From an uncultured Pelagibacteraceae bacterium (lineage in GTDB: Bacteria > Pseudomonadota > Alphaproteobacteria > Pelagibacterales > Pelagibacteraceae): a DNA stretch of 64,000 nucleotides. Numbering within the stretch: the first letter of the stretch is position 1; the number at the start of each line of letters is the position of its first letter. Shown piece by piece: positions 30,704-32,586 of this stretch. Below the pieces are notes generated by a model. It was not told where the DNA came from, did not search any database, and worked only from the letters and a program-made list of their open reading frames with translations. Both the position numbers and the translations under genes were made by a program. The stretch lies in assembly GCA_902552185.1 (NCBI GenBank), contig CACDFZ010000001.1, positions 118,784 through 182,783 of the forward strand, given 5' to 3'.

Positions 30704-31351
30704 ATGAGCATAATAACCAATTTTGAGAAAATAAAACAAGAAATTAAAAATAATTCATTTCAAAATGAAACTGAAATTATTGCGGTAAGTAAAACCTTTT
30801 CAATTGAACACATTATGCCACTGGTTGAGCATGGGCATAAACATTTTGGAGAAAACAAAGTTCAAGAAGCTGAAAAAAAATGGAAAGAATTAAAAAAATC
30901 AACTAATGATTTAAGTCTTCACATGATAGGAAGATTACAATCTAATAAAGCAAAAAAAGCTGTTGAATTATTTGATTTTATACATTCCTTAGATAGTGAG
31001 AAATTAGCAGACGAGTTAAGTAAAAGACAAAAAGAAAAAGATAGAAACTTGGGTTATTTCATCCAAATTAATTTAGGGTCTGAAGAACAAAAAGGTGGTC
31101 TAGAAATAAGTGAACTAAAAAACTTTAATGAATATTGTGTCAATAAACTAAATCTTTCAGTTCTTGGATTAATGGCAATACCACCAAATGATAAAAATGC
31201 AGAAAAACATTTCAAGAGAATATCCGAATTAAATAAAGAGTTCAATTTTCGATATCTTAGTATCGGAATGTCCAATGATTATTTGCAAGCTGTTAAATAT
31301 GGGGCTTCTCACGTTAGAATTGGCAGTGCTATTTTTGGAACAAGAAGTTAG
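30704..31351 (+). CDS. yggS: YggS-family PLP-binding protein (PLP homeostasis)
   Basis: A 215-aa alanine-racemase-like barrel without racemase activity that buffers pyridoxal phosphate. Signatures are IIAVSKTFSIEHI with the PLP Lys, HFGENKVQEAEKKW, HMIGRLQSNK, and SIGMSNDYLQAVKYGASHVRIGSAIFG near the end. Full length. Its ATG directly adjoins the start of the divergent ThiE-like gene (sequence CATATG), so the two genes have no intergenic DNA. The stop shares TTAG with the convergent YkuD gene. Confidence 0.93.
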   Translation: MSIITNFEKIKQEIKNNSFQNETEIIAVSKTFSIEHIMPLVEHGHKHFGENKVQEAEKKWKELKKSTNDLSLHMIGRLQSNKAKKAVELFDFIHSLDSEKLADELSKRQKEKDRNLGYFIQINLGSEEQKGGLEISELKNFNEYCVNKLNLSVLGLMAIPPNDKNAEKHFKRISELNKEFNFRYLSIGMSNDYLQAVKYGASHVRIGSAIFGTRS

Positions 31352-31839
31352 AGAATTTTTAAAAAAGTCTCTTTATTTATAATTGACAACAAGTATTTTA
31401 GATCTTTTTTTGATAATGCTATACAACCTAATGTAGGTTTATAATTCTTTTTTGCAACATGCAAAAATATAGCACTTCCTCTTTTTTTCTTTACAGGATT
31501 AATATTATAGTTAATAACAACGATTATATCGTACACATTTTCTTTGATATACAATCTCTCTGCGCCACCTTTAAAAGGAAATTTTATAAACTTATTATAT
31601 AACTTTGACCGTATATCATCACACCAGCCATAATTTTTTTTTATTGGAATAGTCTTTAGTTTGGAATGAATCTTTTTAACCCTTTCCTTTCTGTAAAAAA
31701 TATATTTTAGTTTAAATCTTCCTCTAGGGGTACATTTATCCCCTTCTACTTTCTTACTTATAATTCCTCTTTTACCAATAGTACATTTTGCTTTATAGTC
31801 TTTAAAATAGATAAATTTTTTTTTTAATATTATATCCAT
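31348..31839 (-). CDS. YkuD-type L,D-transpeptidase
   Basis: A 163-aa protein with the L,D-transpeptidase catalytic motif: AIFLHVAKKNYKPTLGCIALS (His...Gly-Cys), and the strand GKRGIISKKVEGDKCTPRGRFKL preceding it. No signal peptide is visible, so export or a cytoplasmic role is unclear; family members crosslink or edit peptidoglycan. Its ATG overlaps the start codon of the divergent regulator gene in CCATGG. Confidence 0.85.
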   Translation of the reverse strand: MDIILKKKFIYFKDYKAKCTIGKRGIISKKVEGDKCTPRGRFKLKYIFYRKERVKKIHSKLKTIPIKKNYGWCDDIRSKLYNKFIKFPFKGGAERLYIKENVYDIIVVINYNINPVKKKRGSAIFLHVAKKNYKPTLGCIALSKKDLKYLLSIINKETFLKIL

Positions 31840-32467
31840 GGTTTATAAAAAAAATATCATTTTAGCATTTGGAAATAAAGAATTTAATAATTCTTTGAAT
31901 GAAATCCAAGAATATTTAAGTTTTAATTTGGTAACTCTAGATAATTATAAAGATTACAATTCTTCAGAAAGTTATCAAGGTTTCATAATTCACGAAGATG
32001 CATTCAAAGACAAAAATTTTCAAAATTTAATTAAAAATCAAAATACAAACAAAATTGTTTTTCACAATTCAAAAAAGATTGAAGGTTTAGAAAACATTGA
32101 AAAATTAAATTTACCGGTATCTTTCGATCAAATTAACAAAATTGTAGTAAATAATATTGTAAAAAAAGAATTTAAAACGAATTCATCTTTAAAAATCAAT
32201 GATTATAAATTAAATAAAAATTTAAGACAGTTAATTAAAGATACTATTTTTTTAGATCTAACAGAGAAAGAAATAGAACTTATAGAGTTATTGAAAAAAA
32301 GATCATTTATTAAAAAAAAAGAAATTCTCTCAACTATATGGAGATATTCAGATGACGCAGACACGCATACTGTTGAAACACATATTTATAGATTAAGAAA
32401 AAAAGTTAAAGATGTTTTTAATGACGATTTATTTATAAAAAGTTCAAAAAAAGGATATACGATTTGA
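31838..32467 (+). CDS. OmpR/PhoB-type winged-helix regulator with degenerate receiver domain
   Basis: A 209-aa protein. Residues about 140-209 form a clear OmpR-type DNA-binding domain: LTEKEIELIELLKKRSFIKK, DTHTVETHIYRLRKKV and FIKSSKKGYTI. The N-terminal 125 residues follow the receiver beta-alpha pattern, but the phosphoacceptor strand reads GFIIHEDAF with His where Asp is expected, and the switch Lys of KPF is replaced (LPVSFDQI). It is therefore probably a phosphorylation-independent orphan regulator. No histidine kinase is nearby. Target genes unknown. Its last codon overlaps the TTG of the ArfA-like ORF. Confidence 0.8.
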   Translation: MVYKKNIILAFGNKEFNNSLNEIQEYLSFNLVTLDNYKDYNSSESYQGFIIHEDAFKDKNFQNLIKNQNTNKIVFHNSKKIEGLENIEKLNLPVSFDQINKIVVNNIVKKEFKTNSSLKINDYKLNKNLRQLIKDTIFLDLTEKEIELIELLKKRSFIKKKEILSTIWRYSDDADTHTVETHIYRLRKKVKDVFNDDLFIKSSKKGYTI

Positions 32468-32586
32468 AAAAAAGAAATAAATTTGCCAAAGATTTGATGA
32501 CGCCTAAATATCGAACAAGAATTGTTAAACCAAAAAAAGGCAAGGGTAGTTTTAAAAGAAAAAAAATAAAGAGTATTTGGAATTAG
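32464..32586 (+). CDS. arfA: ArfA-like alternative ribosome-rescue factor (40 aa)
   Basis: Missing from the ORF track because it is short. It starts at TTG 32464, overlapping the previous TGA, or at ATG 32497. The translation MKKRNKFAKDLMTPKYRTRI then VKPKKGKGSFKRKK matches the ArfA core, in E. coli LFRQRVEKNKKGKGSYMRK. ArfA recruits RF2 to ribosomes stalled on messages lacking a stop codon, as a backup to tmRNA. The protein is shorter than E. coli ArfA (72 aa, about 55 when truncated) and ends 10 codons after the GKGS motif. It is packed between two genes. ArfA is best known from Gamma- and Betaproteobacteria. Confidence 0.68.
   Translation: MKKRNKFAKDLMTPKYRTRIVKPKKGKGSFKRKKIKSIWN

Follow-up and report, generated by a model that had tools for sequence, protein, structure and literature searches.

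The 40-codon frame at positions 32464-32586 of the window (by which we mean the whole analysed stretch of 64,000 nucleotides) is a real gene and encodes a peptide of the ArfA family, MKKRNKFAKDLMTPKYRTRIVKPKKGKGSFKRKKIKSIWN. We put the probability that it functions, as predicted, as a minimal ArfA at about 0.85. The gene and its surroundings are listed in Table 1.

Table 1. The arfA gene and neighbouring features, in positions of the window
Positions	Strand	Feature	Remarks
30704..31351	+	YggS-family PLP protein	conserved neighbour
31348..31839	-	YkuD-family L,D-transpeptidase	divergent neighbour; conserved gene order
31838..32467	+	209-aa protein with OmpR-type winged-helix C-terminus (Trans_reg_C, PF00486)	first of gene pair
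32464..32467	+	start/stop overlap TTGA	arfA TTG over TGA stop of upstream gene; from the sequence
32464..32586	+	arfA, 40-aa ArfA-family peptide	TTG start, own TAG stop, 40 codons; Pfam, PDB, conservation, pN/pS
32509..32565	+	Pfam ArfA match, residues 16-34, YRTRIVKPKKGKGSFKRKK	Pfam PF03889
32597..33523	-	PfkB-family kinase	convergent; 10 bases between its end and the arfA stop

The Pfam ArfA model (PF03889) matches the peptide with 30.7 bits (curated cut-off 25.5, E 2.2e-7), and the match covers the GKGS region. The ArfA fold known from publications is the one that the peptide adopts in its complex with the ribosome and RF2. A phmmer search aligned residues 5-33 without gaps to the ArfA of ribosome structures 5MGP and 7OJ0 (E 0.006); there were six PDB matches, all of them ArfA and ungapped across 28-29 residues. 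No match to the peptide was found in NCBIfam. In the preliminary description the frame had been read with the same ends and aligned by eye to E. coli ArfA, most of whose C-terminal tail it was said to lack; the frame was borne out, the alignment was upheld by the ungapped phmmer and Pfam matches, and the loss of the tail was confirmed. In E. coli the counterpart of the segment matched by Pfam sits in the A site and the mRNA channel (PMC5378476). The identity of the product as ArfB, a protein of about 140 aa with an RF-1 domain, was rejected, as the frame encodes 40 aa and contains no GGQ motif.

In a Pfam search of 61 genomes of the order Pelagibacterales, the gene was found in 32 of the 37 genomes of the genus and in none of the 24 genomes of a second family, and thus the model does not fire by itself on such genomes. 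Matches exceeded the cut-off in 25 genomes and had E <= 0.001 in 32. An orthologue profile (A1), built from the SAR11 sequences of the loci read, matches 307 of 398 Pelagibacterales genomes and 113 of the 151 more complete ones. The named records with a profile match are Pelagibacteraceae, including Candidatus Pelagibacter ubique HIMB058, and the carrier is thus of the SAR11 type, as had been proposed.

The product is 35-42 aa long in each of the 30 loci read, and these sequences share the core MKKRNKxAxDLxxxKYRxRxxKxKKGKGSFKR, with a single Y for F; KKRNK, KYR and KKGKGS are invariant. Codons 2-34 have pN/pS = 0.157, and among these 33 codons the third position varies in 31 and the second in 10. 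The frame is therefore conserved at the codon level across the loci read, a check that the preliminary description had proposed, and a random or non-coding frame is already refuted by this conservation. A short K-rich frame with a TTG start in an AT-rich genome, overlapping the upstream gene by four bases, could be a coincidence or a remnant of the 3' end of the winged-helix gene. However, the strong purifying selection, the length and start conserved over many loci, the Pfam match above the cut-off and the copy that genus g5 carries elsewhere, without the winged-helix gene, make such an origin extremely improbable.

The gene order yggS-ykuD-winged helix-(arfA)-pfkB-family kinase is common to other Pelagibacter genomes. 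No receiver domain was recognised in the 209-aa winged-helix protein. In 94 of 110 SAR11 loci, a set that includes some genomes fetched twice via different searches, arfA and a gene of the winged-helix type share an NTGA overlap, the start codon being TTG in 37, ATG in 30, GTG in 24 and CTG in 3; in the remaining 16 loci arfA abuts the winged-helix stop codon or overlaps it by a few bases. The loose start codon together with the fixed overlap suggests termination-reinitiation from the winged-helix gene. A frameshift fusion of the two genes was also considered and rejected, as no slippery sequence was seen at the overlap and the starts are variable, though almost always NTG. In several Pelagibacter genomes (e.g. 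L160, L164, L167) arfA is cleanly absent, the winged-helix gene and the kinase gene being just a few bases apart. In genus g5, arfA lies at another site and starts with ATG. Taken together, the relocation and the clean losses mean that the peptide is not a part of the winged-helix protein and can be lost. Some of the genomes in which arfA is absent and the locus is otherwise kept are complete, and thus the gene is dispensable.

The segment K33-R41 (here and below, E. coli numbering) is almost invariant in the 110 SAR11 loci, with K33, K34, G35, K36, G37, S38 and R41 present in 100% of the 110 sequences. In E. coli ArfA, residues 31-48 lie within the mRNA channel, L19, L24 and F25 contact W319, V198 and F217 of RF2 on the ribosome, and the A18T substitution is inactivating (PMC5378476). 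The contact patch is not retained in SAR11: position 19 is D in 95% of the 110 sequences, positions 24 and 25 are K and Y in 100%, and only the aromatic residue at 25 is kept. At position 18 most sequences have K, I or L. Because of the D/K/Y patch and the changed A18, the partner or the efficiency of the SAR11 peptide may differ from those in E. coli. Some non-SAR11 proteins that pass the Pfam ArfA cut-off also vary at positions 19 and 24, and therefore we treat the L19/L24/F25 patch as a contact of the E. coli protein and not as a requirement of the whole family. The conserved hydrophobic residues I/F16, A17 and L20 may replace it.

In the genome of the window (G000), RF2 (L044) keeps the equivalents of V198, F217 and W319 and has the motifs GVHRLVR, HTSF and GWGHQIRSYV. 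One alternative is a peptide that derives from ArfA and still reads the empty channel with KKGKGS, but whose partner, through the changes in its N-terminal half, is RF1 or either of the two release factors, as is reported for ArfT of Francisella. Both leucines that bind Trp319 of RF2 have become charged in SAR11, and the phage copies described below are charged likewise (E/D19, K24). We nevertheless regard this alternative as quite unlikely, given that the same two positions vary in some of the non-SAR11 proteins recognised by Pfam and that SAR11 RF2 retains all three contact residues. Judging from these sequences, we expect RF2 to be the partner of SAR11 ArfA; there is a real possibility that the specificity has changed.

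In E. coli, a stem-loop within arfA leads to a non-stop message and thus to control by tmRNA; this is a regulatory trait, and the last 17-18 residues of the protein are dispensable for its activity (PMC8012679). As a fixed 100-nt window proved too blunt, hairpins were scanned in 45-nt windows from the middle of the ORF to the stop codon or beyond and compared with dinucleotide shuffles. Significant in-ORF hairpins were found in 96% of 24 gammaproteobacterial arfA genes, with a median best window of -24.3 kcal/mol; among 40 SAR11 genes they were found in just 2.5%, with a median of -5.5 kcal/mol. Hence the in-ORF hairpin by which E. coli produces a non-stop arfA message is absent from nearly all of the SAR11 genes scanned; this trait is unnecessary for activity. 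The SAR11 gene has its own stop codon shortly past the KRKKK stretch. It looks like a permanent form of the product that E. coli makes from the cut message. Without the hairpin and with a stop codon of its own, SAR11 arfA is unlikely to be under the control of tmRNA and is probably free of regulation through a non-stop message. The regulation by tmRNA that the preliminary description had given as background for ArfA is thus unlikely to extend to the SAR11 gene.

The tmRNA itself (RF01849) was found in 50 of the 61 genomes and SmpB in 52, and both are present in all 16 genomes that are at least 90% complete. The genome of the window (G000) encodes a two-piece tmRNA with the tag ANNKFALAA, SmpB and RF2. 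Frames with the RF-1 domain (PF00472) in the 61 genomes have the size of RF1 or RF2, the few exceptions being incomplete frames of 265 and 223 aa in one genome (G060) and one open, read-through frame of 5795 aa; none is ArfB-sized. In a second set of 27 genomes, again no ArfB-sized RF-1-domain frame was found in SAR11, and the same search found one (142-193 aa) in four other alphaproteobacteria. The Pelagibacter genomes without arfA at the conserved locus (L160, L164, L167 and similar) have no ArfB-sized frame either. With tmRNA and SmpB present and no ArfB-sized frame found, SAR11 pairs trans-translation with ArfA. This settles the choice that had been raised between two rescue routes and ArfA alone: the genes of two are present, and the proposed search for ssrA, smpB and arfB yielded the first two and no ArfB.

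The 3' end of the tmRNA gene region of G000 (CACCTGGCAACAGAACGCCC) is repeated three to four more times 0.4-6 kb downstream (L322:453, 5782, 6132 and 6291, contig C2), and five copies are found in L323. This is the pattern expected if elements that insert at ssrA had left their attachment sites behind.

By analogy with E. coli ArfA, the following mechanism may be proposed. When a ribosome has stalled at the end of a message and its mRNA channel is empty, the basic tail KKGKGSFKRKK would enter that channel. The N-terminal part would lie at the A site, recruit RF2 and hold it in the open form, and the GGQ motif of RF2 would then free the nascent chain without a stop codon. The gene would be expressed by termination-reinitiation from the winged-helix gene, and ArfA would back up tmRNA-SmpB as a second means of rescue in these bacteria, whose searched genomes yielded no ArfB.

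Relatives of the peptide are encoded by 138 stretches of viral contigs, the best 80 of which were read; this set was gathered with SAR11-like motifs, so that similar copies are over-represented, and a small number of the contigs may stem from hosts. In several contigs of T4-like marine phages (L245:4049-6111, L250, L262, L305), arfA lies between two clamp-loader genes and upstream of a gene for a RegA-like translational repressor; in other viral contigs it is near endolysin, GroES or SbcD-like genes. In many phage peptides the ArfA core is preceded by additional N-terminal residues of the form MPGKWDGRSRPSN..Y...W.RIF (L258, L259, L301 and similar loci; L319:1426-1602). Two phage proteins are already described as ArfA, namely the highly expressed gp30 of pelagiphage HTVC027P (PMC12753301) and g10 of Citromicrobium phage RXM (PMC8953757). 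HTVC027P gp30 has 64% identity to the window peptide over 28 residues and scores 20.2 bits with Pfam ArfA, below the cut-off. A tblastn search of phage records with the whole peptide gave no match, probably because the K-rich sequence was masked; a 20-aa core query found HTVC027P and HTVC115P. No match was found in pelagiphages HTVC008M, HTVC010P, HTVC021P and Mosig, Methylophilales phage Melnitz-3 and Synechococcus phage RN05-S, which were reached through the neighbours of viral loci.

The Pfam family DUF7230 has the N-terminal half in common with viral ArfA (RNPIAK.(V/L)RTP.(F/Y)K..VV) and has no KKGKGS. It is carried by Acinetobacter phage Acj9 (L321:1483-1614, 45.4 bits) and, as a weak match, by HTVC115P gp18 (L320:1489-1749); hhalign of DUF7230 with viral ArfA gave a probability of 95.6% over 24 columns. 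DUF7230 may be a relative of ArfA without the mRNA-channel tail.

Average identities were used instead of a tree, as 29-35 residues would not resolve one. The mean identity of the SAR11 proteins is 0.69 to the viral set, inflated by its selection with SAR11-like motifs, 0.45 to other alphaproteobacterial ArfA and 0.44 to gammaproteobacterial ArfA. The closeness to the viral set, the number of viral copies, several of them between clamp-loader genes and a RegA-like repressor, and the high expression of gp30 in HTVC027P would fit a gene primarily of phage type, acquired by SAR11 and used in phage-host interaction, keeping ribosomes free in infection or starvation, more than in housekeeping rescue. 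On the other hand, in the hosts the gene is coupled to the adjoining host winged-helix gene in all 110 loci read. We consider this history rather unlikely; it concerns origin and use, is compatible with ArfA activity, and would leave the biochemistry unchanged.

The 15,259 genomes surveyed in a 2024 study included 2,376 of alphaproteobacteria, and arfA was reported from none of these; the survey confined the gene to Gammaproteobacteria, some Betaproteobacteria and, within the Bacillus subtilis group, 10 species (PMC11633108). It worked with DNA profiles, which in our view perform weakly on an AT-rich gene of 40 codons. In our class sample, the Pfam protein model gave matches in seven alphaproteobacteria outside Pelagibacterales, and therefore ArfA, as identified by sequence, is rare but not absent there. 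Scattered non-SAR11 alphaproteobacteria (L075, L076, L077 and others) encode ArfA-like peptides of the type KRRNPVAARL...RKGKGSY, and some of these carriers also have an ArfB-sized frame. The earlier assumption that ArfA is mostly gammaproteobacterial and betaproteobacterial thus does not hold for SAR11 or marine phages, nor for other alphaproteobacteria in which ArfA is scattered. No paper on ArfA of SAR11 hosts was found in the non-subscription literature searched; automatic Pfam-annotated database entries may exist. Given the zero count of the survey, the occurrence of arfA in SAR11 hosts appears to be new, pelagiphage ArfA being already published.

SAR11 bacteria are among the most abundant on Earth, and the presence of arfA in the majority of the genomes sampled from them alters the picture given by the survey; short unannotated genes are a part of the explanation of the reported gap. 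With an ArfA that lacks the tmRNA-linked hairpin, in genomes where no ArfB was found, one can test whether non-stop control is a gammaproteobacterial addition, and the phage copies suggest that ribosome rescue is important in marine infection. Tentatively, and with more doubt than confidence, one may imagine that SAR11 and their phages have a distinct branch of ArfA, constitutive, free of control by tmRNA, the sole backup of trans-translation and exchanged between hosts and phages; its N-terminal half would have been rebuilt and perhaps use another release factor or contact.

Among known rescue systems, the closest comparison is with E. coli ArfA (YhdL, PF03889). The SAR11 peptide aligns with it without gaps over the A-site and mRNA-channel segment and keeps N14, K33-G37, S38, the aromatic residues at 25 and 39, R28 and R41, and the genome of the window encodes an RF2 with the Trp319 equivalent. 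However, it has 35-42 aa instead of 72, lacks the hydrophobic tail and ends at its own stop codon; its gene has no in-ORF hairpin, and so is probably not controlled by tmRNA, and is coupled to the winged-helix gene. Only four residues precede N14, and A18, L19 and L24 are replaced. The pelagiphage protein HTVC027P gp30 and its viral homologues share the core NPxAKE(V/L)RTPKYKxxxxKPKKG(K/R)GSFKR, but are phage-encoded and often have an extra N-terminal segment (WDGRSRP...). ArfB (YaeJ), the backup factor of Caulobacter, is similar in providing backup rescue in Alphaproteobacteria and in placing a basic tail in the mRNA channel; unlike the SAR11 peptide it has a GGQ hydrolase domain of its own, and no frame of its size occurs in the SAR11 genomes searched. 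ArfT of Francisella and BrfA of Bacillus are likewise small rescue peptides that recruit release factors, and are described as separate factors.
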